In this document: positions 11,411-35,274 of the stretch, piece after piece | Position numbering within the stretch: position 1 is the stretch's first letter | Layout of the letters: every line of letters starts with the position of its first letter | Assembly: GCA_028289015.1 (NCBI GenBank) | Contig: JAQGHC010000023.1 | Span: forward strand, 1 to 35,803 | Source of the DNA: Candidatus Saccharimonadota bacterium | GTDB lineage: Bacteria > Patescibacteriota > Saccharimonadia > Saccharimonadales > Saccharimonadaceae | Reading direction: 5' to 3' | DNA length: 35,803 bases | Notes under the pieces: model-generated | What the model was told of the DNA's origin: nothing | The model's database searches: none | Seen by the model: the letters and a program-made list of their open reading frames with translations, nothing else | Position numbers and translations under genes: made by a program

Positions 11411-11626
11411 TTATTTATGAAACGCTCGACGTGCTTCGGCAAACAACTTGACGGGGGATAGCCAGTCGGTCGCCTTGCCGACATTCTCGAGTACGAAATT
11501 TAATTTTTTGGTCATCTGACGCACTTTTATCAGGACAATGATGACTACGACCAATAACCCTATAATAACGAGCGACAGCAATGACACGGTGATTGTCAGT
11601 AATGTGATGATAACATCTGATTCCAT
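11411..11626 (-). CDS. small DUF948-like single-TM protein partnered with YtxH (second copy)
   Basis: MESDVIITLLTITVSLLSLVIIG...; start at 11626 preferred, GGGAGAAG SD upstream; paralogous to 9595..9810. Confidence 0.78.
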   Translation of the reverse strand: MESDVIITLLTITVSLLSLVIIGLLVVVIIVLIKVRQMTKKLNFVLENVGKATDWLSPVKLFAEARRAFHK

Positions 11627-11696
11627 GTAGGCAACTTCTCCCTTCGGTACATTAGTTACTACATACATCAATAATACTGAAAATACAGATACACGC

Positions 11697-11712
11697 TGTG
11701 AGATATCTTACT
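11697..11712 (-). promoter_or_regulatory. candidate Crp/Fnr-family site (TGTGAGATATCTTACT)
   Basis: palindromic 16-mer ending 20 bp upstream of TATTAT (11676-11671) on the minus strand. Confidence 0.5.
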
Positions 11713-18762: not shown

Positions 18763-18933
18763 CTAGTGTGCTTTCATAATCCTTGTCGTACCGAACATGC
18801 GAAGCGATAACGTCGGCATACTAATAGTTTTGCTATCGCGATGCTTGACATTCAACTCAGGATATTTCTGCATCTTCTTTGTTAAAAACGTGTGAATACG
18901 CTGATCTAGCTCTTGATCATTATAATTTGTCAT
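18763..18933 (-). CDS. 56-aa small protein, paralogue of 30159..30341
   Basis: MTNYNDQELDQRIHTFLTKKMQKYPELNVKHRDSKTISMPTLSLRMFGTTRIMKAH; SD GGAGGGG upstream, terminator downstream; absent from ORF track (under 60 aa). Confidence 0.75.
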   Translation of the reverse strand: MTNYNDQELDQRIHTFLTKKMQKYPELNVKHRDSKTISMPTLSLRMFGTTRIMKAH

Positions 18934-19001
18934 CTTGCACCCCTCCAGCTTAATAATTTCATTTTACCCCCCACAAATTCTCTGTTCAGTGGTTAATAAC
19001 T

Positions 19002-19067
19002 ACTATACTAGTCATGGTTCGCAAGCAATGTAATCAAACTTACATGTAACCTGTTATAATTTTCACA
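19002..19067 (-). promoter_or_regulatory. promoter of small ORF 18763 with two candidate Crp/Fnr sites
   Basis: TGTAATCAAACTTACA (19029-19044, perfect TGTAA/TTACA arms) exactly 21 bp from TATAGT (19007-19002); second site TGTTATAATTTTCACA at 19052-19067. Confidence 0.65.
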
Positions 19068-19115
19068 TTTTACTTTTCGTAGTATGATAGAAAGAGGTAA
19101 GAGAGTATAAAAATT

Positions 19116-19781
19116 ATGGATAACCTGTTACACAGCATACAATCCCACACGTTGACGCGCTTTGTAAAAAAAGGCTCTATTTTACTTTATCAAGGTGAAA
19201 TCCCTCGAACGGCCTTTATTATTCGACGAGGGCTAGTGCGTGTGTACACTATTACTACTTCTGGCGAAGAACGCACCATAGCATTGCACGGCAAAGGAGA
19301 CATCTTCCCTCTGCCGTGGATATTCGGTGAAGTCACTAACACTTTATTCTACTATGAAGCAATGGTAGATTCGGAGCTTGTCACTGCACCAAAAGCTCAT
19401 ATTCTTGAAGCGGTCGCAAACGACCCTGCACTTACTGCGGCCATTTTGAAATTTAGCATTAATGAGTATACCGCCCTGTTGCTGCGCATCACCGCGCTTG
19501 AACAATCCCGTGCAGCCGAAAAGATCGGCCTCACGCTATACTATCTGATTTTTCGCCATAGTATCGAAAAAACACCCGGCCTATTTACAATTGACATTAA
19601 AATGACTCAATCAATGATCGCTAGCCTTGTCGGCCTGACACGCGAAAGCACGGCGGTTAATCTCAAACTACTTAAGAAAAAAGGTATTATTCAATACAGT
19701 AAATTTACGTATGTTATCGATAAGGCAAAACTTGAACGTTTTGTCGGTGAAGACACCTTCAAAGACCTGACGCTTAAATAA
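19116..19781 (+). CDS. Crp/Fnr-family transcriptional regulator
   Basis: cyclic-nucleotide-binding-like beta-barrel, GDIFPLPWIF, HTH MTQSMIASLVGLTRESTAVNLKLLKKKGII. Confidence 0.9.
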   Translation: MDNLLHSIQSHTLTRFVKKGSILLYQGEIPRTAFIIRRGLVRVYTITTSGEERTIALHGKGDIFPLPWIFGEVTNTLFYYEAMVDSELVTAPKAHILEAVANDPALTAAILKFSINEYTALLLRITALEQSRAAEKIGLTLYYLIFRHSIEKTPGLFTIDIKMTQSMIASLVGLTRESTAVNLKLLKKKGIIQYSKFTYVIDKAKLERFVGEDTFKDLTLK

Positions 19782-19785
19782 TATC

Positions 19786-20169
19786 TTATTTCTTAATAGC
19801 TATCGAGTCTTCAACGATTCGAATTAATTCTTTTGGCGATGCCCGCGCCTTTAAGACGTACCTCTGCGCGCCAAACTCGTATGCTTCGTCAATCTCTTGC
19901 TGTAAATCGTAGTTGCTGAATACAATGATCTCTACGTTCTTATGTTGTGTTTTTGGTTTGTATGCCTTTAAAAACCCGACACCGTCAAGCGTTGGCATAC
20001 GTAAATCCAGAAAGATGATATCGGGCTCTTCCTGCGTGGTCAGAATTAACGCCTCTTTGCCGTTAAATGCCGTGCGCACCCTGTAGCCAGCCGTACTCAG
20101 AATAGTGACATATGCCTGATTGAGCGCGGCGTCGTCTTCAATGATAAGAATACTCGGTTGTTTTTTCAT
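19786..20169 (-). CDS. single-domain response regulator (REC only)
   Basis: ILIIEDDAALNQAY, DIIFLDLRMPTLDGVGFL, VFSNYD, YVLKARASP; no output domain. Confidence 0.92.
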   Translation of the reverse strand: MKKQPSILIIEDDAALNQAYVTILSTAGYRVRTAFNGKEALILTTQEEPDIIFLDLRMPTLDGVGFLKAYKPKTQHKNVEIIVFSNYDLQQEIDEAYEFGAQRYVLKARASPKELIRIVEDSIAIKK

Positions 20170-20334
20170 TTTACTACCCCTATCACTTATTGGACGATGA
20201 TGAATCCTAGTCGACTCGCAGGATTAGCAACGAATAAATATAATTGTGAGTTACTAAGTACTTCAGGCTTAATTTTATTTTACATACATCATTGCAGTTC
20301 GGCATCCAGTATAATCTGATTTGATTTGATGAAA

Positions 20335-20378
20335 ATACCATGAAAAAGAGGCCATAATTGACCTCTTTTTCATGGTAT
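20335..20378 (-). terminator. long hairpin terminator downstream of glsB-like gene
   Basis: perfect 17-bp stem ATACCATGAAAAAGAGG / CCTCTTTTTCATGGTAT. Confidence 0.8.
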
Positions 20379-20388
20379 GTCATATAAA

Positions 20389-20658
20389 TTACGCTTTGAT
20401 ACCACGACCGCTAGTAGCAGCCTTAACGATAGCAAGTAAGATAACTGCACCGAGAATAGCGACCAGTAAACTGCCTATATTAAAGCCTTCAACTTCGTTG
20501 CCGGTTAACATACGAACTACAAAACCACCGATAAATGCACCGATAATACCAACGATGATATTTGCCATTGCGCCCATTTGAGCATCGGTTTTCATTATTT
20601 TTGATGCGATCCATCCAGCTAATGCGCCAAACAAAATCCATAGTACTATATCTAACAT
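20389..20658 (-). CDS. GlsB/YeaQ/YmgE-family (transglycosylase-associated) membrane protein
   Basis: [45 protein letters not shown]. Confidence 0.92.
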   Translation of the reverse strand: MLDIVLWILFGALAGWIASKIMKTDAQMGAMANIIVGIIGAFIGGFVVRMLTGNEVEGFNIGSLLVAILGAVILLAIVKAATSGRGIKA

Positions 20659-20696
20659 TGTTTCCTCCTTATTTAACGTACCTTAGGTACATAGAT

Positions 20697-20739
20697 ATCA
20701 TATACGCTCCATTGTTCGTCAGCTGTGAAATAAATTACA
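20697..20739 (-). promoter_or_regulatory. candidate Crp/Fnr-dependent promoter of glsB-like gene 1
   Basis: TGTGAAATAAATTACA (20724-20739), 21 bp, TATGAT (20702-20697). Confidence 0.6.
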
Positions 20740-20746
20740 AAAAAAC

Positions 20747-21136
20747 TTATTTCTTTTTCGCAAGTGTATAACTAAAGCTGATTTTCTTGACGTCGTCTGC
20801 GCTAGCCTCAAGGGATTCAATCATAAAGATGATGGCGACTTCTATAAATATTACTGCATCCAGTAGGCTGATCGCATACCAATATGATAAGTGGATTGCA
20901 CTGATAGCAAGCGCTGATGCAAAAGCTGCTAAAAACAGACGAAAATACCCCGACCGGGGCGGACTCGTCACCAATAGCGTTACGAGGACTACAATAAGTG
21001 CGGCGCGCATATACGCATAATAAATCGAGGTTGAGGCCAGCCACATCAATGGCGTATCAGGTTGATATAGACCACTAAAAAGCATGGCACATACAAGAAG
21101 AGTCGTAATGACAATAAGTAGCCTTTTAACACCCAT
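20747..21136 (-). CDS. hypothetical membrane protein
   Basis: 129 aa, four hydrophobic segments, SD GGAGAA upstream. Confidence 0.7.
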   Translation of the reverse strand: MGVKRLLIVITTLLVCAMLFSGLYQPDTPLMWLASTSIYYAYMRAALIVVLVTLLVTSPPRSGYFRLFLAAFASALAISAIHLSYWYAISLLDAVIFIEVAIIFMIESLEASADDVKKISFSYTLAKKK

Positions 21137-21392
21137 ACTTCATTCTCCGTTAGTTAGTATTATCCCCACCTTAGCAACTTTTCAGCTAATCCTCTGTAAT
21201 TTATTTTACTTTTTTGTGCATTATGCAAACTTCTTCCCCTATGTTGTAAACAGGCATGTCATCATCTGTTAAAAAATAACATTTAATTCTACTGTTGCTA
21301 TTCTATTTGTTTCTTATAAAATATAAGCATATACCGAATTAATCTTCTGCAGTCTCCTATTTGCAATAAAATTCCTAAACAGGAAAATTGTC

Positions 21393-22553
21393 ATGAATCC
21401 ACGTGACGCCCAAGAAATCACAGACACTAAAAATAAATATCAACTATTAGTTGATAGTGTGCAAGATTATGCCATTTTTTTATTAGATTCTTCTGGGTAC
21501 GTAGAAACCTGGAACATCGGTGCAGAGAATATGAATGGATACACCCCTGGCGAAGTAATTGGTCAACATATTTCAATGTTCTACACACCTAACGATATCA
21601 GTGAGGGCAAACCGGAAAAAGAATTATTGCAAACTGCCCAAGAGCTACATATTGAGACTGAAGATTGGAGAGTGAAGAAGGATGACAGCCGATTTTGGGC
21701 AGTTACCACGACGACCGCCCTTTATAGCGAAAGCGGTTCTTTAATCGGTTTTGCTAAGATAACAAAAGATATTACCGATAAAAAACGCAGTAAAAATGCT
21801 TTAATTGCAGCGAACAGACTTTTAAAGCACCAACATGTCGAACTCGAAGCACTAAACAACGTTAAGGACGAGTTTGTGTCACTCGCGTCGCATCAATTGC
21901 GCACACCCGCGACAGGGATAAAACAATTCTTAGGGTTGCTACTGGAGGGCTATGCCGGTCCGCTGACCGAGCAGCAAATGGCATACATCCAGAAAGCATA
22001 CGACAGCAACGAACGTCAGATTGATCTAGTAAACAGCTTGTTGCGTACAGCCCAAATTGACGCCGGTAAAGTTATACTAGACAAATCATTCGTAACCTTA
22101 CGGACAATCATTGATGAAGTCGTAGAAAATATGCGTGAAGTTTTTACTGCAAGGCGCCAGAACGTTGAAGTCCATGAAGCGCAGCCGCTATCAAATATTT
22201 ATATAGACTCAAGCAGAGTGAGAATGATGCTAGAGAACCTTATCGATAACGCCAGTAAATACACTGACAACGACGGCCGTATAGTGATCACTCTTTCAGA
22301 AACGAAAGCATACGTCGATATTAGCATACAGGATACGGGGGTTGGCATGGCAGAGAAGGATTTAAAGCGTATCTTCGATAAATTTAATCGCATACCGAAC
22401 AGACTGTCTGATAATGTTGGCGGAACGGGATTGGGGTTGTACTGGGCGAAGAAAATCGTCGAGCTACACAAGGGAATAATCAAGGTCCGCTCCCAAGAAG
22501 GAGAAGGGACTGAATTTTTAATAAGGTTGCCGAAAGGAGTTATACGTGTTTAA
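21393..22553 (+). CDS. PAS-domain sensor histidine kinase
   Basis: PAS/PAC, VSLASHQLRTPATGIKQFL H-box, LIDNASKYTDN N-box, IQDTGVGMAEKDLKRIFDKFNR, GGTGLGLYWAKKI. Confidence 0.93.
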   Translation: MNPRDAQEITDTKNKYQLLVDSVQDYAIFLLDSSGYVETWNIGAENMNGYTPGEVIGQHISMFYTPNDISEGKPEKELLQTAQELHIETEDWRVKKDDSRFWAVTTTTALYSESGSLIGFAKITKDITDKKRSKNALIAANRLLKHQHVELEALNNVKDEFVSLASHQLRTPATGIKQFLGLLLEGYAGPLTEQQMAYIQKAYDSNERQIDLVNSLLRTAQIDAGKVILDKSFVTLRTIIDEVVENMREVFTARRQNVEVHEAQPLSNIYIDSSRVRMMLENLIDNASKYTDNDGRIVITLSETKAYVDISIQDTGVGMAEKDLKRIFDKFNRIPNRLSDNVGGTGLGLYWAKKIVELHKGIIKVRSQEGEGTEFLIRLPKGVIRV

Positions 22554-23004
22554 GTTATTAATTGTTGAAGATGATGCATCAATACGCGAAGCATTTTCTA
22601 TCATATTAAAGCTTAATGATACGTATGACGTGACAACTGCCGACAATGGTCAGGTTGCTTTAGATTTATGCAACGAAAATACCTACAATATCATCCTTCT
22701 CGATATCATGATGCCTATCATGGATGGCCCGACCTTTTTAAAGGAATATTTAAAACTCTATCCGAATGACGTTACTAAAATTATTATTATGAGCAATCTT
22801 TCGTCTGGCAGTGAATTGTCGATATTGCGTGATTATGGCGTCGACAGATTTGTCCTGAAGAGTTCCCTAACCCCGCAAAAACTTATGGACACTGTCGCCG
22901 AGGTTCTTCAACAAAGAAATAAAACTAAGCAGCAAATCAGTCACACGAATGATGACAAGAGCAGCACCGATGAAAACAATGAGCAGTCTGTCGGTAAAGA
23001 TTAA
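22546..23004 (+). CDS. single-domain response regulator
   Basis: LLIVEDDASIREAF, IILLDIMMPIMDGPTFL; GTG start with AAAGGAG; overlaps kinase by 8 bp. Confidence 0.9.
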   Translation: MFKLLIVEDDASIREAFSIILKLNDTYDVTTADNGQVALDLCNENTYNIILLDIMMPIMDGPTFLKEYLKLYPNDVTKIIIMSNLSSGSELSILRDYGVDRFVLKSSLTPQKLMDTVAEVLQQRNKTKQQISHTNDDKSSTDENNEQSVGKD

Positions 23005-23021
23005 TAAAGTCATTTGCGACG

Positions 23022-24878
23022 TTAACGTAGGGTAGAGATAACGGTTTTTGTTACAAGAACGCCTAATCCGACAATAAATGCGGCGGCCATGACTGGCAAG
23101 AAGTCAAATTGCGGTTCCGATTGCCGAGGCTGACTAATAGGTGTGGCATCGGCAGGTGTCGTCTTAGCGGTTGTTGCGCCTTTTATATCTTTAGTATCGT
23201 CAACCTGAGGCTCTTGAACAGGCAGGACGGACACTTCTTGGTCGTAGCTATAAGCATAATCAGATGTACTTGGAGCGCCAACATATGGCGTGGTTTTTGC
23301 GGCAGGCCTAGACGTATTAGCAACGAACTGAAATGGCTGAGCTGATGGTGGCAGAGTCAATCCACCGGATGCTGGTGTTTCATTGTTGCTAACCTGAGAG
23401 GGCTGATTTCCCCGCTCGGTATCTACCCCGAAACTACCAAGCCAACTACCGAATACGTTGATGAACAATACGCCAAACCAACCTGACAAGCCAAACTGGC
23501 TGCCGACGATATTTGCAACGTTAGCAGACGCAGTCGCGTGACCTGTCCTTGCGTCTCCCGCGGTGGTGTTATCTGCGACTGTCGCATCTCCGGACTGTGA
23601 ATTAAGATTTAGATTATTGACGATTTGACTATTATTATTCACGTCAACCGTTAAATCTGGCGCGACGTCACTGGTTGTCACCCCAGTCCCTAACGCTGCC
23701 GCACTTGCCCCTGTTGGCGCATCAACAATCAGTCCAACCCACTTGCCAAGAACATTTACGAAGACAAGTAGGCTGTCCTTGGCGATAATCTGATGGCCGG
23801 ATAGATTAAGGAGTACAAGGTTAGTTGCTGCATTTCCGGTAGTGGCGTTACCTGCGTTCGTATTATTAGCGACCATCGCATTACCACTCGCCGCATTAAG
23901 ATTAATATTATTAATGATTGATTGTGTTTCTTGCGTAGAAACTGTTAACGAGTTCGCAGGTGCCGACGAACCCCCATTGTTACTTGCAAGTAATTGCGGA
24001 ATGAAATCGGGAGCAACCAATATATCACCGTCCAGGTTACCGTAAATATTTACCGTACCGACAAATGACTGGTTCGCTGCGATAATTGAATTGATAATAT
24101 TCATGACGTTTGCGACTGTATTTGCCGTACCTGTGGTTGCGCTTCCGCCAGTCGTATTACTCTCAACATCTGCATTTCCGCTAGTCGCATTTAGGTTAAT
24201 GTCGTTATTTATCTGCGCATCATTATTCACTGCGATCGTCGACTCGGCAGGTGTGTTTGCCGCTTGTAGCATCGCAGAAAGCAGCATTGGATAAAGCATG
24301 ATATCACCATGTACGTTACCGACAACGTCAGTCACGAATGTCGAGAATTCTGCGCCGTTACCACTAACGGATGAATTAATCATATTCATGGCATTTGCGA
24401 CTGCCGTGGCATTTCCACTTGTTGCGTCACCCCCCGTCGTATTATGTTTTACGACTGCATTTCCTGTTGTCGCATCTGAATTAAGCGTGTTATTAATAAC
24501 AGCTTCAGTATCGACCTTCACCGTCGATGCGGCTTCGGGCTGACCAGAGCCTGGTTGCACGTCACCAGCTGTGGTGTCGTTAACGATAGGTGGCTGCTGC
24601 CGCTCTTCAACGACAAGCGGCATCACTACATGGTCATATGCGCCTGTTTTCGGATTAAAGGCCCACTTGTTGCTATCCCAATGCTGCGTCTCTGGGTTGT
24701 ACGTATACCGCTCTGGTTCGGGCGCCGATGATGTAGAAGCAACGGGCTCTGTTGAGGCTGTTGCCGGAGGAGTGCTATTCGCCGTCTCTGCCATAGCGGC
24801 AACTGGATACCCGCCTGTAAGCAGTACCACAGCCACATATATCAGGCACGTTTGAATAGAGTTTCTCAGCTTATGCAT
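23022..24878 (-). CDS. large secreted repeat protein with signal peptide and C-terminal TM anchor
   Basis: start at MHKLRNS after GGAGGGG; four NNxINNxNLNAxSGNAxVxxNTxxGxAxTGxA modules; C-terminal FLPVMAAAFIVGLGVLVTKTV. Confidence 0.8.
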   Translation of the reverse strand: MHKLRNSIQTCLIYVAVVLLTGGYPVAAMAETANSTPPATASTEPVASTSSAPEPERYTYNPETQHWDSNKWAFNPKTGAYDHVVMPLVVEERQQPPIVNDTTAGDVQPGSGQPEAASTVKVDTEAVINNTLNSDATTGNAVVKHNTTGGDATSGNATAVANAMNMINSSVSGNGAEFSTFVTDVVGNVHGDIMLYPMLLSAMLQAANTPAESTIAVNNDAQINNDINLNATSGNADVESNTTGGSATTGTANTVANVMNIINSIIAANQSFVGTVNIYGNLDGDILVAPDFIPQLLASNNGGSSAPANSLTVSTQETQSIINNINLNAASGNAMVANNTNAGNATTGNAATNLVLLNLSGHQIIAKDSLLVFVNVLGKWVGLIVDAPTGASAAALGTGVTTSDVAPDLTVDVNNNSQIVNNLNLNSQSGDATVADNTTAGDARTGHATASANVANIVGSQFGLSGWFGVLFINVFGSWLGSFGVDTERGNQPSQVSNNETPASGGLTLPPSAQPFQFVANTSRPAAKTTPYVGAPSTSDYAYSYDQEVSVLPVQEPQVDDTKDIKGATTAKTTPADATPISQPRQSEPQFDFLPVMAAAFIVGLGVLVTKTVISTLR

Positions 24879-24997
24879 AACACCCCTCCTCTTTTTATCA
24901 TTTATTAATAAGATCATGACCAGGGAGAACATTGGGCGTTGCTCCCCCTGGAGCGATTCGTCTAAGAGTGACGAAAGGCGACTAACAAGTCAGCAGA

Positions 24998-25591
24998 CTA
25001 GTTAGTAACGTCAAACCTAATTGTTGTTGAATTAGTGTTTGTCGCATCACCTGTTGTAGCCGAGCCGCCTTCACGGTTGTTGCGAACTTCAGCGTCACCA
25101 GACGTAGCAGTCTGAGTGTTATTGTTTACTATCGAAAGATCGTTGTCGTTGTCGATACCGACAGTACTGCGACTTTCAGAGGTAACGTGATTATCTGAAC
25201 GTGGGCCAGTGTTTTCGATAGTGGCTTCGTGGTTGCTACTACCATTTCCACCCCAGTTAGCTAATACGCCGGTAGATGCAGAGTTGTCTACACTAACTGC
25301 AGCATCAAGCCTGTTTTCGTTCAAAGCACTGCCGGTTTTAGCGTCGCCACCTTCAGTGTTGCCGCGAACTTCAGCTTCACCCGTCTCAGCACTTTGATCG
25401 TTATTGTTCTCAACGTCAACGTTATTATCGTTTTCAACGTCAACGCGCTGAGAAGTCTCGCTATGAATTGTATTATCTGATCGAGGCCCGGTATCATCGA
25501 TTGTACCAGTGGCCGCACCAGCAAATCCGGATAATCCAACCACAAGACCAAGTGACAATACAGCTGCGCCTAATTTCTTTTGCATTTTCAT
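24998..25591 (-). CDS. secreted protein with two NTEGGDAxTGxA-type repeats
   Basis: signal peptide KKLGAAVLSLGLVVGLSGFAGAA; repeat motif shared with 23022..24878. Confidence 0.8.
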   Translation of the reverse strand: MKMQKKLGAAVLSLGLVVGLSGFAGAATGTIDDTGPRSDNTIHSETSQRVDVENDNNVDVENNNDQSAETGEAEVRGNTEGGDAKTGSALNENRLDAAVSVDNSASTGVLANWGGNGSSNHEATIENTGPRSDNHVTSESRSTVGIDNDNDLSIVNNNTQTATSGDAEVRNNREGGSATTGDATNTNSTTIRFDVTN

Positions 25592-25604
25592 ATATATACT
25601 CCTT

Positions 25605-25695
25605 CGCTTATTTTGATAATTCTTTTTTCGGGTGTTCGCCCGACCAAGATAGATCGATATGGTGACCCTATCCGGGTCGCAACGACCACCATGTT
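25605..25695 (-). ncRNA. possible structured 5' UTR of 24998..25591
   Basis: three consecutive short hairpins on minus strand: GGTCG-TTG-CGACC, GATAG...CTATC, TCGGG-CGAACA-CCCGA. Confidence 0.25.
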
Positions 25696-25711
25696 ATATA
25701 TTTTTTACATA

Positions 25712-26284
25712 TTACTGACCTTCCTTATTTTTGACGTCAACATCCGTACTGGATGAGGATCTCAAATTTATATTTGTTGACGAGCGGACATTCGACGTAC
25801 CGGATCTATCAGAATCGACATTAATATCAACTGTCGTTTTGCCATTTTCATTTTCAATAACCCGATGGGTTGAGCCGTCGGCGGGAACGGGAATTGATTG
25901 ACCGTTTACTTCAACAGCTCCTTTCAATGAAGAGCTGCTATCAACTTTTAGGTCGATTCTATCAGTCGAGACGGATGAAGAACTGGACGCTGATGAGGAT
26001 TCAGAAACAGACCCGTCTGCTGCAGTAGCAGGCGCGGTTTTTGCTTCTGGCGCAAACGTACCTTCCGACACGTCACCAACGGAGCCGGAGCGTAGCGGAG
26101 TTACTACCCCAACGGACATCGCAAGAGCGTAGTACCACCCACCTAGCACGATACTTGGAATAACTAAAATTGCCAGAAGCCTTATTGTCTTTATAGGATT
26201 CGCCTTAAGATTGTGAAGATATGACGAGAATAAGATCGTATTATCTCGATCGGTAATACTACCATCGGACAAATTCCTCAACAT
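25712..26284 (-). CDS. Ser/Asn-rich surface protein with one TM
   Basis: start at MLRNLSDG after AAAGGGGG; TM then SSSASSSSSVSTD and VDINVDSDRSGTSNVRSSTNINLRSSSSTDVDV. Confidence 0.75.
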   Translation of the reverse strand: MLRNLSDGSITDRDNTILFSSYLHNLKANPIKTIRLLAILVIPSIVLGGWYYALAMSVGVVTPLRSGSVGDVSEGTFAPEAKTAPATAADGSVSESSSASSSSSVSTDRIDLKVDSSSSLKGAVEVNGQSIPVPADGSTHRVIENENGKTTVDINVDSDRSGTSNVRSSTNINLRSSSSTDVDVKNKEGQ

Positions 26285-26336
26285 ATACAACCCCCTTTTC
26301 TCATCAGTCACTAAGCTATTTGGATGAACTACCCCA

Positions 26337-26380
26337 ACAATACAAGGTTTCGCTCATGCTTGTATGTGAAAAATTTTACA
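26337..26380 (-). promoter_or_regulatory. candidate Crp/Fnr-dependent promoter of surface-protein cluster
   Basis: TGTGAAAAATTTTACA (26365-26380), 22 bp, TATTGT (26342-26337). Confidence 0.6.
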
Positions 26381-26514
26381 ATACCACTTCTTTTATACAT
26401 CTAGTCAATAAACTTATGTAATTTCATCTAAAATACTCGTAAAGATATTGTTGTATTTAAATTGTATATGTCCTATAAAGCACCTATTACTAGCATGCTG
26501 CTATACTAGAAATA

Positions 26515-27387
26515 ATGACAACGATTAAAAAAATTATCATTATCTATAACCCCAATAGCACTGGTGATGGTAAATCTAACGCAGAAAATTTGCAAAAACA
26601 ACTCGCCCACATATCTACTATTTCCGTTACGTTACGACCGACCGAATTTGCTGGTCATGCAGAAGAAATTGTCAAAAAACTACCAAACTATGATACAACG
26701 ATGGTCATCTCTTCAAGTGGCGATGGCGGGTATCACGAAGTAATTAACGGTGTGTTGTCGCATGGCGAAAATACGACCAAAATCATCACAGGGCTGTTGC
26801 CATCAGGTAATGCTAATGATCACTACAACGCAGTTCACTCCGGAGATATCGTCGAAAGGATTAAAAATAACAATGTACAACGCGTAGACGTTCTTAAGGT
26901 CACCGTTGGGAGTTGGACACGCTACGCCCATTCATATGCAGGTATTGGGCTAACGCCTCATATCGGTGAAAAATTAACCCAAGCAACTCTTAATCCTTTC
27001 AATGAGATATGGCTCACTATTCGATATTTTTTGAATTTTCGGCCTGTTAAGATTCGGACTGGCATTAGCACTCATCGATATGACAGTCTCATCTTTAGTA
27101 ATATCAAGCGCATGTCAAAGTACCTTACCCTTTCTAGCGAGGCAAAGATTGATGATGGAAAATTTGAAGTGACCGGATCGAAAGCAGGCACGTTCACTAA
27201 GCTTCTAAAGCATCTCTTTAAGGCTTCCACTATCGGACTGACCGAAGATGCAAATCATGTCGATAGCTACTCATTCAGCTCGACGCATCCCATTTCTATG
27301 CAACTGGACGGAGAAGTGTTTCGATTTGCTGCCGGATCAGAAGTGACAGTATCGATTGTTCCAAAGGCTTTAAATTGTATTATTTAA
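26515..27387 (+). CDS. diacylglycerol/sphingosine kinase-family lipid kinase (YegS/LCB5-like)
   Basis: IIYNPNSTGDGKS, SSSGDGGYHEVINGVL, TGLLPSGNANDHY. Confidence 0.85.
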   Translation: MTTIKKIIIIYNPNSTGDGKSNAENLQKQLAHISTISVTLRPTEFAGHAEEIVKKLPNYDTTMVISSSGDGGYHEVINGVLSHGENTTKIITGLLPSGNANDHYNAVHSGDIVERIKNNNVQRVDVLKVTVGSWTRYAHSYAGIGLTPHIGEKLTQATLNPFNEIWLTIRYFLNFRPVKIRTGISTHRYDSLIFSNIKRMSKYLTLSSEAKIDDGKFEVTGSKAGTFTKLLKHLFKASTIGLTEDANHVDSYSFSSTHPISMQLDGEVFRFAAGSEVTVSIVPKALNCII

Positions 27388-27418
27388 TACAGCGCCACTT
27401 ATGATCAAATTGTATTAT
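27376..27418 (+). promoter_or_regulatory. candidate Crp/Fnr-dependent promoter of metallopeptidase gene
   Basis: TGTATTATTTAATACA (27376-27391, palindromic except central 2 bp), exactly 21 bp, TATTAT (27413-27418). Confidence 0.5.
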
Positions 27419-27465
27419 TAAGCTTGAACAAAATTTAAGATGAAAAATCATCAAGGAAGTGCTGA

Positions 27466-28296
27466 ATGGCATATTGGGATAAACTAACTGGCCGTGGCAA
27501 CGTCGAGGATCGTCGAGGACAAGCCGCAGCAATCGGCGGAGGCCTTGGTGCCATCGGTATCGTTGTAACTTTAATATATAGTTTTCTAAGCGGAGCGCCT
27601 ATTGACGTTGCGCAAATACTTTCTCAATTACAAGCAACGCAATCAACGCAGCAGAATCTAACGAACAAAGACTTTGAAGGCGCGGATAATTACGAAGTGT
27701 TTGCTTCAACCGTACTTGGGTCGACGACCGACCTATGGAAAAATATATTTTTACAGAATAGCATGACCTATCCCGAGCCTCGCCTCGTGTTATTTAGAGT
27801 AGCAACCACTTCCGGATGCGGAATGGCAACATCCGATGTCGGACCGCATTACTGCCCTTCCGATCAAACGATCTATATTGATGAGACGTTCTTTGTCGAA
27901 TTGCAACAACGATTCAAGGCTAAGGGTGGCGACGTCGCGGAAGCATATGTTATTGCACACGAAGTTGGCCACCACGTCCAGAATGAATTAGGGATTATGG
28001 ATCAAATTCAACAGCAAGGCAATTCAAATGAATTATCAGTTAAACTAGAACTACAGGCAGACTGTTTTGCTGGCATCTGGGCAAATTCCGTCAATGAGCT
28101 GGGTGTTTTTCAGTCAGGTGAAATTAACGAAGCCATCGACGCCGCTTCAGCGGTAGGAGATGATCGCATTCAGCAGAGCACCCAAGGGCAATTAAGTCCC
28201 GAAACATGGACACACGGATCGTCACAACAGCGCGTCGAGTGGTTTACGAAAGGTTTTGATAGTGGCGACCCGCAAACTTGCAATACTTTTAGCTAG
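27466..28296 (+). CDS. YpfJ/KPN_02809-family neutral zinc metallopeptidase
   Basis: N-terminal RGNVEDRRG, TM, HEVGHHVQ zinc motif, LELQADCFAGIWA. Confidence 0.93.
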   Translation: MAYWDKLTGRGNVEDRRGQAAAIGGGLGAIGIVVTLIYSFLSGAPIDVAQILSQLQATQSTQQNLTNKDFEGADNYEVFASTVLGSTTDLWKNIFLQNSMTYPEPRLVLFRVATTSGCGMATSDVGPHYCPSDQTIYIDETFFVELQQRFKAKGGDVAEAYVIAHEVGHHVQNELGIMDQIQQQGNSNELSVKLELQADCFAGIWANSVNELGVFQSGEINEAIDAASAVGDDRIQQSTQGQLSPETWTHGSSQQRVEWFTKGFDSGDPQTCNTFS

Positions 28297-28598
28297 CGTA
28301 TTTCATGGCCACGGGCTTGATCGTCATCACTCCATAAGCGCGTACACAAACTACCTATGACGAGTACCCCTCCTGCAGCCGCCAGTGAGGCGGGGAAAAT
28401 ACTATATTCATACCCAGACGCCCAAGTGAACAGCCAAAATGCGATATAGAAACTAAGGACACCCCAAATCACATTCACTTGTGCGCTAGAAGGTTTTCCG
28501 AATGGCGTCATATGTTTTTCACCCGTTATGCCTTTGACGAAATGAGGAACTCCGTTTGCCGCAAATAATCCGAACAGAAAAAACAATATATAACTCAT
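28293..28598 (-). CDS. small hypothetical membrane protein
   Basis: 101 aa, TM segments, SD GGAGG; 15 bp downstream of ADH gene. Confidence 0.75.
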   Translation of the reverse strand: MSYILFFLFGLFAANGVPHFVKGITGEKHMTPFGKPSSAQVNVIWGVLSFYIAFWLFTWASGYEYSIFPASLAAAGGVLVIGSLCTRLWSDDDQARGHEIR

Positions 28599-28613
28599 AC
28601 AATACCTCCTTCG

Positions 28614-29798
28614 CTATGGTTTCAGAACTATTTTTATCGCGCCATCCTCTTTCTTTTGAAAGATGTCATAGGCGTGCGCAGCCTCGTTAAGTGACAGATG
28701 ATGAGTGGCAAAGTCGTCAGTCCCTAGCGGATCTTTAGTTGTCAGTAGAGGCAGTAATGTCGGTGCCCAACGCTTCACATTCGCCTGACCCATGCGGATT
28801 TGAATTTGTTTATCGAACATTGTATCAAGTGGCATTGGATCCACTTTACCTGCATACACACCAATAATTGAGATTGTTCCACCTCGGCGCACGATGTCGA
28901 TAGATTTATGCAACGCATCCATCCGATCTATTCCCGCTTTTTTTATCAAGGCGGACGCAGGACCGTCTGGCAGTATCCTCGCCGATGTCTGTATAGCCTT
29001 TTCAAATCCGGATCCGTGCGCTTCCATTCCGACCGCGTCAATTACAGCGTCGGGTCCTCGCCCATCAGTCATATCTTGAATTATAGACAACAAATCTTTT
29101 TCGTTTTTAGACAGATCAATAACATCAATGCCGCGTGCCTTAGAGCGTACTAGGCGTTCGGGCACTAAATCAACGCCAATGACTCTGCCCGCACCTCTAT
29201 ACTTGGAAATTCTTGCCGACATATCTCCAATCGGACCTAGCCCCATAATGACAACGCTACCACCTTCAGGGATATTGGCGTATTCTACCGCTTGCCATGC
29301 GGTTGGCAACACGTCAGATAAAAAAAGAAAGCGATCATCTCCAAAATCGCTGGGGACAAGAATAGAGTTATATTGTCCATGCGGCACTCGCAGGTATTCC
29401 GCTTGACCACCTGGCACATGACCATACAGTTTACTATACCCAAAGAATGCAGCACCTCGACCCTGACTTCGCACTTGCGTCGTTTCACATTGCGATTGCA
29501 ATCCCCTATCGCACATATAGCATTTGCCACATGCAATATTGAATGGAATAACAACGCGATCACCTACTTTTACCGAGGTCACCAAATTGCCGATTTCCTG
29601 CACAACACCCATCGGTTCGTGACCTAACACGTCCCCTTTATCCATAAACGGTGTCATTACTTCATATAGATGCAGATCCGAGCCACAAATTGCGGTAGAA
29701 CTTATTTTAATGATGATATCCGTCGGTTCTTTGATTGTCGGATCAGGGACTTCTTCGACTGAAATTTTTCGTCTCCCTTGCCACGTTACTGCCTTCAT
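28614..29798 (-). CDS. zinc-dependent alcohol dehydrogenase family (formaldehyde dehydrogenase-like MDR)
   Basis: CGSDLHLYE, GHEPMGVVQEIG, CGKCYMCDRGLQSQCE structural zinc site, GLGPIGDM; start at MKAVTW after AGGGAGG. Confidence 0.92.
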   Translation of the reverse strand: MKAVTWQGRRKISVEEVPDPTIKEPTDIIIKISSTAICGSDLHLYEVMTPFMDKGDVLGHEPMGVVQEIGNLVTSVKVGDRVVIPFNIACGKCYMCDRGLQSQCETTQVRSQGRGAAFFGYSKLYGHVPGGQAEYLRVPHGQYNSILVPSDFGDDRFLFLSDVLPTAWQAVEYANIPEGGSVVIMGLGPIGDMSARISKYRGAGRVIGVDLVPERLVRSKARGIDVIDLSKNEKDLLSIIQDMTDGRGPDAVIDAVGMEAHGSGFEKAIQTSARILPDGPASALIKKAGIDRMDALHKSIDIVRRGGTISIIGVYAGKVDPMPLDTMFDKQIQIRMGQANVKRWAPTLLPLLTTKDPLGTDDFATHHLSLNEAAHAYDIFQKKEDGAIKIVLKP

Positions 29799-30023
29799 AA
29801 CAACCTCCCTTACATTTAACAACAAGCCGATTTCTTGCTATAGATGTAGCGGCGCTACATTATCACTATGGCGCTAAATGACACAAAAAAGTATGAGTAT
29901 TTTTACTTTTTTAAAAAACTCTCCGCACCATTATGCTTGCATCTAACATCAGATAACAGAGATATTTATAAACACCCCCTTGTTTGCGCAAGAGGGCAGG
30001 TAACTAATAGAAATAAACAATAT

Positions 30024-30137
30024 TTAAGCTAATCCGAATTCCTTTTGCATCATATGCTTTTTTAAACGCTTGTATGATTTGTCTGGTCGTAATTCATCAT
30101 TTAATGGAGAGCGACTTTGGTATCTTGTACGTGACAT
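30024..30137 (-). CDS. candidate 37-aa small protein MSRTRYQSRSPLNDELRPDKSYKRLKKHMMQKEFGLA
   Basis: SD CAGGAG 6 nt before ATG on minus strand; lies directly downstream of 30159..30341. Confidence 0.5.
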   Translation of the reverse strand: MSRTRYQSRSPLNDELRPDKSYKRLKKHMMQKEFGLA

Positions 30138-30158
30138 ATGTTACTCCTGTTCTTCAGA

Positions 30159-30341
30159 TTAACCTAATAGTTGAGGCTTTAGAGCTTGCATAGACGAAAC
30201 AGCAGGCATCGAAGCAAAGTGTGCTTGAAGGGTGCTGTGCTTCACTTTCTTAACTTTTATCAATTCTGGGTATTTTTCGGTTTTTCTAGCTATGAATGCA
30301 TTGATTTTTGAATCTAATTCTTTCCGGCTAAATTGTTCCAT
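30159..30341 (-). CDS. 60-aa small protein, paralogue of 18763..18933
   Basis: MEQFSRKELDSKINAFIARKTEKYPELIKVKKVKHSTLQAHFASMPAV...; shared ELDxxIxxFxxxKxxKYPEL. Confidence 0.7.
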   Translation of the reverse strand: MEQFSRKELDSKINAFIARKTEKYPELIKVKKVKHSTLQAHFASMPAVSSMQALKPQLLG

Positions 30342-30444
30342 ATCCTTTTCCCCTTATCAGTTATGCTTGTTTGCTCTGTAGCGTTTTCAGCTTCCTTTGA
30401 ACTACCTCGCTGAATATACTAACTATATCGTTTATGTTTACGAC

Positions 30445-30487
30445 TCTATAGGAACATCTTCACATAAAACAGGTAATAATTTTCACA
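30445..30487 (-). promoter_or_regulatory. candidate Crp/Fnr-dependent promoter of small ORF 30159
   Basis: GGTAATAATTTTCACA (30472-30487), 21 bp, TATAGA (30450-30445). Confidence 0.5.
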
Positions 30488-30501
30488 AATTTGAATAAAA
30501 A

Positions 30502-30528
30502 AACGGAGTGTCTATTTGACACTCCGTT
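30502..30528 (-). terminator. terminator of signalling operon
   Basis: 11-bp stem AACGGAGTGTC / GACACTCCGTT, T-run on minus strand. Confidence 0.8.
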
Positions 30529-30549
30529 ATGCACTTTGTTACCGATATA

Positions 30550-30939
30550 TTAATGATGAACGTCAATGTCTTCAACGAGCTTCAATAGCTCTTTTGGTGA
30601 CGCCCAGGCCTTCAAAACATACCGTTCGGCACCAAGCTCATATGCTTCGTCAACCTCTTGTTGCATATCATAATTACTGAAAATGATTACTTTGACATGC
30701 TTGTGGTGTTTCTTTGGCTGGTATTCTTTTAGGAATTCGATACCATCCATGACCGGCATTCGAAGGTCTAAGAAGATAATATCAGGATCTTGCTCGGCAA
30801 CTAATCGTAATGCCTCTTTGCCATCATAAGCAGTCCGCGTCGCATGACCATTGCTCTCAAGGATCATCTTGTACGCATCGTTTAACATCAGGTCATCTTC
30901 GACCACTAATATGCTTTTTGAAGTTTTCTTTGTCATCAT
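30550..30939 (-). CDS. single-domain response regulator, paralogue of 19786..20169
   Basis: ILVVEDDLMLNDAY, DIIFLDLRMPVMDGIEFLKEYQPKKHHKHVKVIIFSNYDMQQEVDEAYELGAERYVLKAWASPKEL. Confidence 0.92.
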   Translation of the reverse strand: MMTKKTSKSILVVEDDLMLNDAYKMILESNGHATRTAYDGKEALRLVAEQDPDIIFLDLRMPVMDGIEFLKEYQPKKHHKHVKVIIFSNYDMQQEVDEAYELGAERYVLKAWASPKELLKLVEDIDVHH

Positions 30940-30973
30940 TTCCTTGCCTTTCAGTCTATTATACCATCTGTCG

Positions 30974-32131
30974 TTATATCACTGTCGTTTCTAGCATAGT
31001 GGCCGGATAAGTCTTAGGTAAGTGGATCGTAAATTTAGTTCCCTGACCTATCGCAGATTCGAACGTCACGCGACCTTGATGCAGGTCAATGATTTTTTTC
31101 GCCCAATACAATCCAAGACCCGTTCCACCCACTTGAGTCGAAAGCGGGTTCTCGATTCTGGAGAATTTTTCAAATAATTTATCTTGATCTTCTAGTCTTA
31201 TGCCGACACCCCTATCGATGATCGTAATTTGAGCCTCGCCGTTATCTTCATCTAATTTGACTGTCACAGTCTTATCTTCGCCCGAATATTTGCTGGCGTT
31301 ATCGATAAGGTTTTCTATGACCATTCGTATCGTATCGCGATCAAAATGCAAGCGCATATTCGTCTTCTTGGGCTCGAACACTACAGTTTGACGTCGCTTA
31401 TCAAACGTTTCATGTTGCTCTTTTATGACATCGTAAATTAATGACACGACATCAACTTCAGCCTTACGCAGACGAACCTTACCTGCATCTACCTGAGCTA
31501 CTCGTAACAGGTCGGTGACAATTCGAAGCTGGCGTTCATTGCTTTCATTGGCTTTTTGTAAGATTGATTTTTGACTGTCACTCAGCTCGCCAACAAAACC
31601 CTCGAGCACCATCCCAAGGTACTGCTTTACGCCTGTAGCAGGCGTACGCAACTGGTGGGCGGCTAATGAAATAAATTCATCTTTTGCTTTATTCAGCTCA
31701 ATTAACGAGCGTAGTCGCTGCTCTTCGAATTGCTTGCGTTCTAGCGAATAATAAAGCGTACGAGCAAGCAGTTCGGCATTAATCGTCCCCTTTACTAAAT
31801 AATCAGCCGCAGCAAGCTTCATCGAACGAATTTCAATCTCGCGGTCACCTACGCCAGTCAGTAAAATGAACGGCTCAGAACGTCTATACGGCTGTGCATA
31901 ATCAAGCAGCTCAAGTCCCGTCTGTCCATTCAACCGATAATCTATTAAATAAATGTCGTGATTACGCAGGTCTATCAGACTTTTGGCTTCGTCAAAACTT
32001 GAGCACCACTCTATTTGGAAAGGTGAATCAGGAATTTGCGCAAACACCCGACTAATAATCAGATAATCGTCCTCATCATCGTCGACGAGGAGCACTTTGA
32101 TAATTTTATTTTTGGGCGTATTCAGTTGCAT
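30974..32131 (-). CDS. hybrid REC-HisKA-HATPase histidine kinase
   Basis: N-terminal REC VLLVDDDEDDYLI...DIYLIDYRLNGQTG; H-box SLAAHQLRTPATGVKQYLG; GGTGLGLYWAKKIIDLHQG. Confidence 0.93.
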   Translation of the reverse strand: MQLNTPKNKIIKVLLVDDDEDDYLIISRVFAQIPDSPFQIEWCSSFDEAKSLIDLRNHDIYLIDYRLNGQTGLELLDYAQPYRRSEPFILLTGVGDREIEIRSMKLAAADYLVKGTINAELLARTLYYSLERKQFEEQRLRSLIELNKAKDEFISLAAHQLRTPATGVKQYLGMVLEGFVGELSDSQKSILQKANESNERQLRIVTDLLRVAQVDAGKVRLRKAEVDVVSLIYDVIKEQHETFDKRRQTVVFEPKKTNMRLHFDRDTIRMVIENLIDNASKYSGEDKTVTVKLDEDNGEAQITIIDRGVGIRLEDQDKLFEKFSRIENPLSTQVGGTGLGLYWAKKIIDLHQGRVTFESAIGQGTKFTIHLPKTYPATMLETTVI

Positions 32132-32570
32132 GAGGTAGCTCTACAATCTCGAACCAATACAGTCCAAGTGTTTTCATGACCGTGATTAAATTTTCAAAGG
32201 TGACTGGCTTGGTAATAAATGAATTACCACCCAATTGATACGAGCGATACACGTCCTCTTCAGCCTTTGAAGTCGTAAAGACGACAACCGGGATATTAGA
32301 AAGCGTAGGTTCTGACTTAATAACCTTCAAAGCTTCGCGGCCGTCCATTCGCGGCATATTAAGATCAAGTAATATCACTCCGGGGCGTGCGACGTCTTGA
32401 CCTTCATACACGCCACGTGCAAGCAAGTAGTCAATAAGCTCTTCACCGTCTTTTACGCGGATGAGCGTGTTTAATAGTTTACTTTCCTTCAGCGCCTTCT
32501 TCGTTAATACGTAGTCATCATCGTCGTCATCGGCCATTAAAATTGTAATCGGATCTTTACATGTGGTCAT
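32106..32570 (-). CDS. Rcp1-like single-domain response regulator
   Basis: ILMADDDDDDYVLTKKALKESKLLNTLIRVKDGEELIDYLLARG; ILLDLNMPRMDGREAL. Confidence 0.92.
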   Translation of the reverse strand: MTTCKDPITILMADDDDDDYVLTKKALKESKLLNTLIRVKDGEELIDYLLARGVYEGQDVARPGVILLDLNMPRMDGREALKVIKSEPTLSNIPVVVFTTSKAEEDVYRSYQLGGNSFITKPVTFENLITVMKTLGLYWFEIVELPHATEYAQK

Positions 32571-34797
32571 GTGGACGCTCCTTGTGATTGATAGGTAACT
32601 TTATTATAAACGTTGAGCCACTATTTTGCTTGCTTTTAGCCTCAATTTTTCCTCCATACCGCTCAACAATTTTACGACAAACTGCCAATCCAATTCCTGT
32701 CCCTTCGTACGCATCTCGTCCGTGCAAGCGCTGGAACACTGAAAATATACGATCAAGATATTTTTCATCAAATCCTATACCGTTATCTTTGACGTGTATC
32801 TCGTAGTATTTATCGTCTTTTGCGCGAGACTTAAGAGAAATTGCCACTTTTGGTGGAGTGCCCTCTTTATGGAATTTCAACGCGTTGCCAATAAGATTTT
32901 GGAACAGTTGACGCATATGAGTAGCGTCGGCCCATACAGCAGGCAGTTTAGCCATCGACACCTTGCCGTCTTTTTCGGAAATACTCGTCTCTAGGTCGCC
33001 GATAACTTCCTTGACAATCACATTCAAGTCTACTTGATCAATTTGTTGCGGCTTCGTCGTTACCCGCGAAAATGCTAGCAAATCCTGGATCAAAATACTC
33101 ATACGCGAGGCCGCGCTACGCATGCGGTTCAAATATTCCTTGCCGTCTCCAATCTGGTCTTTGTATTCACTTTCTAGTAAATCACCAAATGCTTGAATTT
33201 TTCGAAGAGGCTCTTGCAGATCATGCGATGCAACATAGGCAAAGTCCTGCAACTCTTGATTGCTGCGTGCCAGATTCTTTCCGTATTCCTGCAGCTCTCT
33301 TTCGGTTTTTTGTCTGCGGCGAATCTCTTTTTCTAACCCATCATTCGTATCCACCAGTTGTCTGGTTCGTTCAACGACTCGACTTTCAAGGACGTTATTA
33401 GCAGCTTCAAGTTGGCGCTGCAATAATTTACGTTCTTTAAGCTCGTGCTGTGCAGCTTGATATAAGTTCGCATTATATACCGCCAGTGCCGCGCGGTTTG
33501 CTAACCCCTTCGCGACTTCAATATCTGAAGGCTTGTAGTGAATTTTTGATTCCGTAGATATGAGACTGATTGCACCAATCGTTTTATTATCAAGCTTCAT
33601 CGGAACAATAATGACGGAACTAAATCCGACCTCACGCATCAATTTAAGCTCATCCTCATCTTTCGCGACAGCAACGAGCATTTCATCAGGAATATCAGGA
33701 TAATACTCTACCTCACCGGTTCGCAAAACATTCGGCAGCCCACTAGGCTCGTTCAAGTTAGGTGGGCCTTGCTTTTCGTATAATTCTTTAGCCCATTTGA
33801 CCTTTGCAGGATCTTTGTGAGCTGTAGCGACACGTTCGATTGTTTTACCATCAAACAGGTCGATCGAACACCAGTCTGCAATATCGGGAACAACCATGCC
33901 GGCAATCGTACTCAGTGTCACTTTTGGGTCCAGGGATGCGGAGAACTGCGTACTGGCTGCCGTTAAAAATTTAATATTATTCTCTGCAGTTTTCCGATCA
34001 GTAATGTCCACAATAACCCCAGGGAAGTTATCCATATTTCCGGCTTCATCAGCCTCAATTTTTCCACGCACAAGCACCCAGCGCACATCGCCGTCAGTAT
34101 TAAATGTACGATATTCACTTTCAAAAGACCCGGTTGTTTTTATTGCACCTTGTATTTCATTTGCAACTCGATCGCGATCCGCCGGATGGATCGACCCTAT
34201 AAACATGCTCGCAGCCATACCTTTTTTCACTTGATCAGCAGGTAAACCAAACAACATCGCAAGGTTGCTATCGCCATATACCTTATCCAGCTTTATATCC
34301 CAAAACCATGTTCCGATCGAACCGTTTGACAACGTTTGTTCTAGTTGTGCCTGGGCGATGTTTAACTTTTTCTCTGTTTGAACTTTATCAGTAACATCCT
34401 CGGTAGATTGACATACTGCAATGACATTATTTTCTTTGTCAAAAACTGGATAATGGACAAGGCTCCATACTTTTTGCGTGACATTACCTTTCTTATCTAC
34501 CAAGTCATATTTGAGATTAGGCATCATATCTGGCCGCTTTGTTCGAATTACCTTGCGAACGGACTCTTTGAATAAACTTACGCCCGTTTTTAAGTATTGC
34601 TCTGAGACATCGGGGAACACGTCAAAAACAGATTTACCAATAATGTCATCGCGTTTCACCATCGATATCTCGGCGTGCGCCTGGTTCTCTTCAAGAATAG
34701 TGAAGTCAGGATCATCTACCCCATACACAATATAAGCGTTTGAGAGGGATTGAAATAATTTCTTGTGGTCAATGGTAAGTGTGTTTTGTACTGTCAT
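32557..34797 (-). CDS. PAS-PAS-GAF sensor histidine kinase (phytochrome-type HisKA)
   Basis: two PAS regions, GAF-like region, FAYVASHDLQEPLRKIQAFGDLLE, NLIGNALKFHKEG, GTGIGLAVCRKIVERYGGKI. Confidence 0.93.
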   Translation of the reverse strand: MTVQNTLTIDHKKLFQSLSNAYIVYGVDDPDFTILEENQAHAEISMVKRDDIIGKSVFDVFPDVSEQYLKTGVSLFKESVRKVIRTKRPDMMPNLKYDLVDKKGNVTQKVWSLVHYPVFDKENNVIAVCQSTEDVTDKVQTEKKLNIAQAQLEQTLSNGSIGTWFWDIKLDKVYGDSNLAMLFGLPADQVKKGMAASMFIGSIHPADRDRVANEIQGAIKTTGSFESEYRTFNTDGDVRWVLVRGKIEADEAGNMDNFPGVIVDITDRKTAENNIKFLTAASTQFSASLDPKVTLSTIAGMVVPDIADWCSIDLFDGKTIERVATAHKDPAKVKWAKELYEKQGPPNLNEPSGLPNVLRTGEVEYYPDIPDEMLVAVAKDEDELKLMREVGFSSVIIVPMKLDNKTIGAISLISTESKIHYKPSDIEVAKGLANRAALAVYNANLYQAAQHELKERKLLQRQLEAANNVLESRVVERTRQLVDTNDGLEKEIRRRQKTERELQEYGKNLARSNQELQDFAYVASHDLQEPLRKIQAFGDLLESEYKDQIGDGKEYLNRMRSAASRMSILIQDLLAFSRVTTKPQQIDQVDLNVIVKEVIGDLETSISEKDGKVSMAKLPAVWADATHMRQLFQNLIGNALKFHKEGTPPKVAISLKSRAKDDKYYEIHVKDNGIGFDEKYLDRIFSVFQRLHGRDAYEGTGIGLAVCRKIVERYGGKIEAKSKQNSGSTFIIKLPINHKERPHDHM

Positions 34798-34870
34798 GAA
34801 ATATTTATTGCAATTAGGTAATTTGGCAATCCTTTTATAGGGTAATTATACGTACGATTCAGCAAGAAGC

Positions 34871-34908
34871 AACATACAAATAGAGCGCCGTCGCTCTATT
34901 TGTATGTT
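34871..34908 (-). terminator. long hairpin terminator downstream of second glsB-like gene
   Basis: perfect 17-bp stem AACATACAAATAGAGCG / CGCTCTATTTGTATGTT. Confidence 0.8.
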
Positions 34909-34924
34909 GAAGGCTAAGGCTACA

Positions 34925-35197
34925 TTAGGCTCGGTGAGCGGTCCGGCCGGTTGCTGCTTTCACAATAGCAAGCAGTACCACTGCGCCGATAATCGCAACG
35001 ATGACGCCCATAATACTGAATGTTTCAGGAGTTGTGCCTGTAAGCATTCGCACTAGGAATCCACCGATAAACGCACCGATGATACCAACGACAATATTTG
35101 CCATTGCACCCATTTCTGCGTCAGTATGCATAATTTTTGATGCAATCCACCCCGCTAACGCACCTACGATGATCCAAGTGATAATTTCCATAATCAT
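34925..35197 (-). CDS. GlsB/YeaQ/YmgE-family membrane protein (second copy)
   Basis: [47 protein letters not shown]; paralogue of 20389..20658. Confidence 0.92.
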
Positions 35198-35231
35198 TTT
35201 TTTTCTCCCCTTTTACGTTGTTACTGCCCCT

Positions 35232-35274
35232 ATCATAAAGAAATTAAAGTAAATGAACTGTAAAAAATATCACT
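35232..35274 (-). promoter_or_regulatory. candidate Crp/Fnr-dependent promoter of glsB-like gene 2
   Basis: TGTAAAAAATATCACT (35259-35274), 21 bp, TATGAT (35237-35232). Confidence 0.5.

Follow-up and report, generated by a model that had tools for sequence, protein, structure and literature searches.

A predicted class II regulon of a Crp/Fnr activator, with stress-type targets, in Saccharibacteria

The DNA analysed here (the window) is a stretch of 35,803 nucleotides that forms contig 27 of the genome of a Candidatus Saccharimonadota bacterium (G000: 846 kb, 37 contigs, 93.6% completeness). On its plus strand, at positions 19116..19781, it carries a gene (crp) for a Crp/Fnr-family regulator of 221 amino acids (aa), referred to below as the 19116 protein. 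This protein is probably a class II Crp/Fnr activator of a regulon of small envelope and stress proteins, the promoters of which share a palindrome at exactly 21 base pairs (bp) from the -10 element, an arrangement that is also present in many related genera. Sequence analysis supports such a regulon, of putative general-stress type, in a group for which none was found described: no paper on a Crp/Fnr regulon in Saccharibacteria was found in the open literature searched, most subscription journals lying outside it.

Results

Enrichment of the palindrome at 21 bp from the -10 element

The initial annotation had reported seven 16-bp palindromes upstream of -10 hexamers and had assigned them a fixed class II spacing. 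All seven were found at their positions, with gaps to the -10 of 21, 21, 22, 21, 21, 21 and 20 bp; six of the corresponding promoters are directed along the minus strand and one (27376) along the plus strand. Six near-consensus sites with a TANNNT hexamer at 20-22 bp were counted in the window; 300 dinucleotide shuffles gave 0.68 on average and never more than 4. When only the distance of 21 bp was considered, four site/-10 pairs were obtained (shuffle mean 0.26, maximum 2), in agreement with the enrichment over shuffles anticipated at this distance.

For the genome searches, the core pattern was TGTRA-N6-TYACA-N21-TANNNT (N21 pattern) and the reversed pattern served as control. With one mismatch at most, the whole G000 genome gave 21 matches against two for the reversed pattern. 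Two of these 21, at 19029 and 26365 of contig 27 (plus strand), read known palindromes on the opposite strand. A few more either fall within long open frames or are not followed by a gene start. A realistic estimate of the G000 regulon would be roughly 15-20 promoters, about 15 of them from the N21 pattern and the others from the weaker sites of the window.

The spacing was analysed on 268 near-consensus sites from loci that had been selected for a homologue of the regulator or of GlsB, and not for their -10. In 81 of them a TANNNT followed at exactly 21 bp; other offsets gave 8.3 ± 3.7, and the values at 20 bp (9) and 22 bp (11) were at background level. The fixed class II spacing therefore holds as a sharp peak at 21 bp, and the range of 20-22 bp was dropped as a general rule. 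Since only the distance of 21 bp is enriched, the window sites at 11697 (20 bp) and 26365 (22 bp) are supported by conservation or by homologous targets elsewhere, and not by the spacing statistics.

Co-occurrence of the sites with the regulator

Of the 245 family genomes, 63 encode homologues of the 19116 protein (E<=1e-25), and a genome with no homologue at this threshold was considered regulator-negative. Sites were found by pattern searches of genomes and of short stretches around the matches, and were counted in 75 family genomes, of which 30 have a close orthologue (regulator-positive), 14 have distant homologues only and 31 have none. The N21 pattern was present on average 4.1, 1.8 and 0.32 times per genome in these three groups, respectively. 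The totals amounted to 123 in the 30 positive and 10 in the 31 negative genomes, where the reversed control gave 6; the site counts of positive and negative genomes differed with a Mann-Whitney p=1.5e-10, relatedness being uncorrected. In the positive genomes, the 123 exact N21 matches compare with 19 for an N24 spacing, several of which are N21 sites with overlapping TA..T hexamers. Six regulator-negative genomes have sites: four of them encode another Crp-type helix-turn-helix (HTH) protein above the Pfam cut-off, and two (G018 and G051) do not. Few N21 sites were found in the other orders of the class.

The glsB gene was used as an anchor for this comparison. GlsB homologues are encoded by 29 of the 30 regulator-positive and 12 of the 31 negative genomes. 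A site exactly 21 bp from a TANNNT hexamer precedes glsB at 28 of 30 loci in the former and at one of 12 in the latter (p=2e-7), this single case being found in G051. At the level of comparative sequence analysis, the regulon and its link to the 19116 regulator are well supported.

Promoter architecture and autoregulation

At the site promoters, no -35 element better than those of random spacers was found, and those -10 positions which the pattern does not specify tend towards TATAAT. The missing -35, together with a spacing fixed to 1 bp, implies class II activation. In the mechanism that we propose, the dimeric 19116 protein would bind TGTRA-N6-TYACA centred about 41.5 bp upstream of the transcription start, would stand in for the absent -35 and would recruit RNA polymerase with the housekeeping sigma factor. 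The expected output consists of the GlsB paralogues, small membrane proteins, surface proteins, a YpfJ-type peptidase, a YGGT-like protein and others, and the regulon would probably fill the role that an alternative stress sigma factor has in other bacteria.

Sites are present upstream of most crp orthologues, as a rule at 21 bp from the -10 of a divergent small gene. In the source clade, a second site is located 23 bp nearer crp, at 15-18 bp from the crp -10 and over the -35 region, where it is predicted to exert negative feedback. In another clade (L035, L036, L038, L039 and L047; genomes such as G130 and G042), one palindrome lies 21 bp from both divergent -10s, and positive feedback is predicted for this arrangement.

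Features of the 19116 protein

The 19116 protein consists of a cyclic-nucleotide-binding-like domain (PF00027, 53 bits) followed by a Crp-type HTH domain (PF13545, 38.7 bits), both above cut-off, and its orthologues co-occur with the sites. It does not contain any cysteine and is therefore not an iron-sulfur sensor of the FNR type. Three identities were rejected: CRP, the cyclic AMP (cAMP) receptor (24 bits for a cut-off of 266, with no sign of the cAMP pocket by alignment), FNR (45 bits for 228, the cluster-holding cysteines being missing) and NtcA (41 bits for 245, the column of the NtcA pocket arginine never being Arg in the orthologues). The best solved-structure match to the regulator profile is NtcA. 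Either cAMP or an iron-sulfur cluster is unlikely to be the signal of the regulator.

In the recognition helix, alignment of the orthologues showed that Arg176 and Glu177 are invariant. Another column of this helix, which we take to be the equivalent of CRP Arg185, is variable, and a half-site relaxed to TGTRA fits with this variation. At position 4 of the sites, recognition helices of the K type go with 44 G and 25 A, and those of the V/M type with 35 G and 49 A; this association of G with K and of A with V/M, in which relatedness was not controlled, is only suggestive. A second, distant Crp/Fnr protein is encoded in G000 (L018, contig 9, 6903-7469) and has 24% identity to the 19116 protein.

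Genes behind the sites

Targets were searched for by pattern alone, with no regard to what the genes encode. Behind 55 of 89 sites (62%), a gene with a ribosome-binding site starts at a suitable distance, compared with 16% of random anchors. Among the genes behind sites, 26 of 55 have homologues that follow a site in a different genus, versus 14 of 144 control genes from the same stretches. The target classes named by the initial annotation recur behind 21-bp sites in other genomes; this holds for GlsB, for the 86-aa membrane protein encoded at 11411, for the YpfJ-type peptidase, for the surface protein encoded at 25712 and for the small open reading frame (ORF) family. One further target had been overlooked, the gene at 20747-21136 behind the site at 21195.

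Besides these classes, single-domain response regulators, YGGT-like, SPW, DJ-1/PfpI, FMN-reductase and L25/Ctc proteins are recurrent targets. A photolyase, an enzyme of the trehalose-phosphate-synthase family, an aldo/keto reductase and a DUF7144 protein were each found in a single genome or genus. The G000 targets include a YGGT-like protein and, as judged by eye, KGG-repeat and FMN-reductase-like proteins. For many small targets, including L065, L152 and L177, no Pfam family exceeded its cut-off, and their likeness to CsbD or KGG-repeat proteins was noted by eye. Two paralogous membrane proteins of 68 aa (..HAELRKDVHEAHSESKLAKLLSTLAMIA.. type) each lie behind a 21-bp site, at L222-L223 (contig 21) and L226 (contig 26).

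Sites and targets in the window

The nearest named relatives of the source genome are the Candidatus Saccharibacteria metagenome-assembled genomes RYN_419 and JJ.18. Their copies of the 19116 protein are 95-96% identical to it, compared with about 70-75% identity for the DNA around the regulator locus. At this DNA identity, the sites at 19029, 20724 and 26365 are kept with their spacing in syntenic relatives, so that the footprints expected upstream of glsB and of the small ORF were recovered.

The site TGTAAGTTTGATTACA (19029..19044, minus strand) is located 21 bp from the -10 TATAGT (19002-19007), and site, spacing and -10 are kept in two relatives. It would control the promoter of a 56-aa small protein (18763..18933, minus strand) divergent from the regulator gene, homologues of which lie behind 21-bp sites beside crp orthologues. 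The second site, TGTTATAATTTTCACA (19052..19067, plus strand), is 15 bp from the crp -10 TATGAT (19083-19088). It is identical in both relatives, its arrangement is repeated in other genera, and it is predicted to be a repressing autoregulatory site. The response regulator gene beside the regulator gene (19786-20169) has a 21-bp site at 12 or more other loci, whereas no such site was seen upstream of it in the window.

The promoter of glsB1 contains the site TGTAATTTATTTCACA (20724..20739, minus strand), 21 bp from the -10 TATGAT (20697-20702) and kept with its spacing in syntenic relatives. The predicted product, a GlsB-like protein (PF04226; 20389..20658, minus strand), is the anchor target. 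Orthologous promoters in relatives also carry the site AGTAAAATAAATTACA (21195..21210, minus strand), which is 21 bp from the -10 TAAGGT (21168-21173); the putative target behind it, also with orthologues preceded by a site, is a 129-aa membrane protein (20747..21136, minus strand).

Farther on, the site TGTAAAATTTTTCACA (26365..26380, minus strand) lies 22 bp from the -10 TATTGT (26337-26342), and palindrome and spacing are both kept in RYN_419. The first gene behind it, its putative target, encodes a predicted surface protein (25712..26311, minus strand) with homologues behind exact 21-bp sites elsewhere (L057, L064, L068). The site TGTATTATTTAATACA (27376..27391, plus strand) departs from TGTRA/TYACA and is 21 bp from the -10 TATTAT (27413-27418). 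Its candidate target is a YpfJ-type zinc metallopeptidase (PF04228; 27466..28296, plus strand). The site is supported by the promoter of a homologous peptidase of 53% identity in G136 (L180), which has the arrangement TGTGAATATCTTCACA-N21-TATAAT.

The site TGTGAAAATTATTACC (30472..30487, minus strand) is 21 bp from a weaker -10, TATAGA (30445-30450), which misses the final T. The putative target is a second small protein, of 60 aa (30159..30341, minus strand), homologous to that of 18763-18933. Between the second response regulator gene and this site, a strong terminator-like hairpin, ACGGAGTGTC...GACACTCCGT, with an A/T run (30490-30530), separates two transcription units. In the promoter of glsB2, the site AGTGATATTTTTTACA (35259..35274, minus strand) lies 21 bp from the -10 TATGAT (35232-35237), and the G002 orthologue (L110) has the same site; the candidate target is a second GlsB-like protein (PF04226; 34925..35197, minus strand). 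The module small ORF, single-domain response regulator and GlsB is present twice in the window (18763-20658 and 30159-35197). The two response regulators are paralogous, as are the two GlsBs, and the Crp/Fnr gene is found in the first copy only.

The site AGTAAGATATCTCACA (11697..11712, minus strand), 20 bp from the -10 TATTAT (11671-11676), is tentative; in G061 and G111, homologous genes are preceded by sites at exactly 21 bp. Its tentative target is a small membrane protein (11411..11626, minus strand). The listed TTG start (11671) overlaps the -10, and the ATG at 11626 is therefore a likelier start.

Discussion

The class II Crp/Fnr regulon put forward in the initial annotation is upheld by enrichment over shuffles and over the reversed control, by the 21-bp peak, by conservation and by co-occurrence with orthologues of the 19116 protein. 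From the gene content and from the single sigma factor (PF04542) detected in G000 at 93.6% completeness, we infer a role in stress and at the envelope that would parallel that of sigma-B. Some of the targets (families such as Ctc, PfpI and GlsB) would match general-stress sets in kind, many others being unassigned.

Several observations speak against this interpretation. Because the genomes are related, the p-values overstate the evidence. Genomes with distant homologues only still average 1.8 sites, and G000 itself has the distant paralogue of contig 9. In G051 (98% completeness; L062, L117), four exact sites and the glsB site are present and no Crp-type HTH was detected; a contig may be missing, the regulator may have been lost, or another protein may bind the sites. 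Many targets have no assigned function, and several relatives have 2-4 sigma factors, so that replacement of a sigma factor is not a family-wide rule.

The function of the regulon could be metabolic or related to lifestyle (oxygen, redox, host contact) instead of general stress. Oxidoreductases and a ribonucleotide reductase small chain are among the targets in single genomes, and the targets with no known function leave room for such a role. We consider it rather unlikely, since the recurrent core (GlsB, PfpI, L25/Ctc, SPW, YGGT and small membrane proteins) is nearer to stress and envelope sets than to a catabolic pathway.

It is improbable that another Crp/Fnr paralogue, such as the contig-9 protein, is the sole or main binder of the sites, or that paralogues share them. 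The existence of that protein and the intermediate site counts in genomes with distant homologues only would agree with this; however, the glsB site is kept in G030, G042, G110, G130 and G171, which have no Crp-like candidate besides the 19116 orthologue, and sites flank the 19116 gene and its orthologues.

It is very improbable that the 19116 protein represses these promoters by sitting over the -35 region and blocking RNA polymerase. A site centred near -41.5 is able to block a -35, and the second crp-promoter site in the source clade looks repressive; however, these promoters lack a -35 that could be blocked, and their spacing has the 1-bp precision which contact-dependent activation requires. 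Chance occurrence of AT-rich palindromes and TANNNT hexamers at these distances can be practically dismissed. The exact palindrome taken without a -10, a weak discriminator, is indeed only about twofold over control in G000 (8 versus 4), but the 1-bp peak at 21 bp and the glsB comparison already refute chance, and conservation, regulator co-occurrence and target recurrence speak against it.

Activation by the 19116 protein being retained as the preferred explanation, it may tentatively be extended: a Crp/Fnr activator could be the master switch of a general stress/envelope response in reduced Saccharibacteria with few sigma factors, and the sign of its autoregulation could have changed between clades through promoter rearrangement. 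We would not yet favour this extension over its contrary. For a group with little known regulation, the analysis yields a motif and a spacing rule, together with a candidate regulator and a list of putative targets. It ties many small uncharacterised proteins to one putative switch, and it opens to direct test the question of how stress responses are mounted in a bacterium that has only one sigma factor.

Comparison with known systems

At the class II promoters of NtcA, GTAN8TAC is centred near -41.5, the -10 is TAN3T, and 22 nucleotides separate site and -10 at ilvG (PMC3898017). Counted from GTAN8TAC, this gap equals 21 bp from the TGT..ACA of the saccharibacterial sites. The cyanobacterial system has in common with the present one the protein family, a compatible palindrome, the lack of a -35 and the TAN3T -10. 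It differs in that position 4 of the saccharibacterial sites takes G or A and that their targets are stress and envelope genes, not nitrogen genes.

With class II activation by CRP and FNR in E. coli, the 19116 protein shares the fold family, TGTGA-like half-sites and a position near -41.5. The Arg-Glu pair of its recognition helix is presumably the counterpart of the pair in CRP. In contrast to these proteins, it has neither a cysteine nor signs of a cAMP pocket, and its scores with their models are far below cut-off.

The SigB core list of Bacillus subtilis includes ctc, csbD, ydaS, yfkM and ytxH (PMC7824861). The kinds of targets would overlap between the sigma-B regulon and the one proposed here, as seen for L25/Ctc and small general-stress proteins. 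We take ydaS to be the counterpart of GlsB, and yfkM that of PfpI. Unlike the sigma-B regulon, the saccharibacterial regulon would be controlled by a Crp/Fnr activator acting at promoters of the housekeeping type, and not by an alternative sigma factor.

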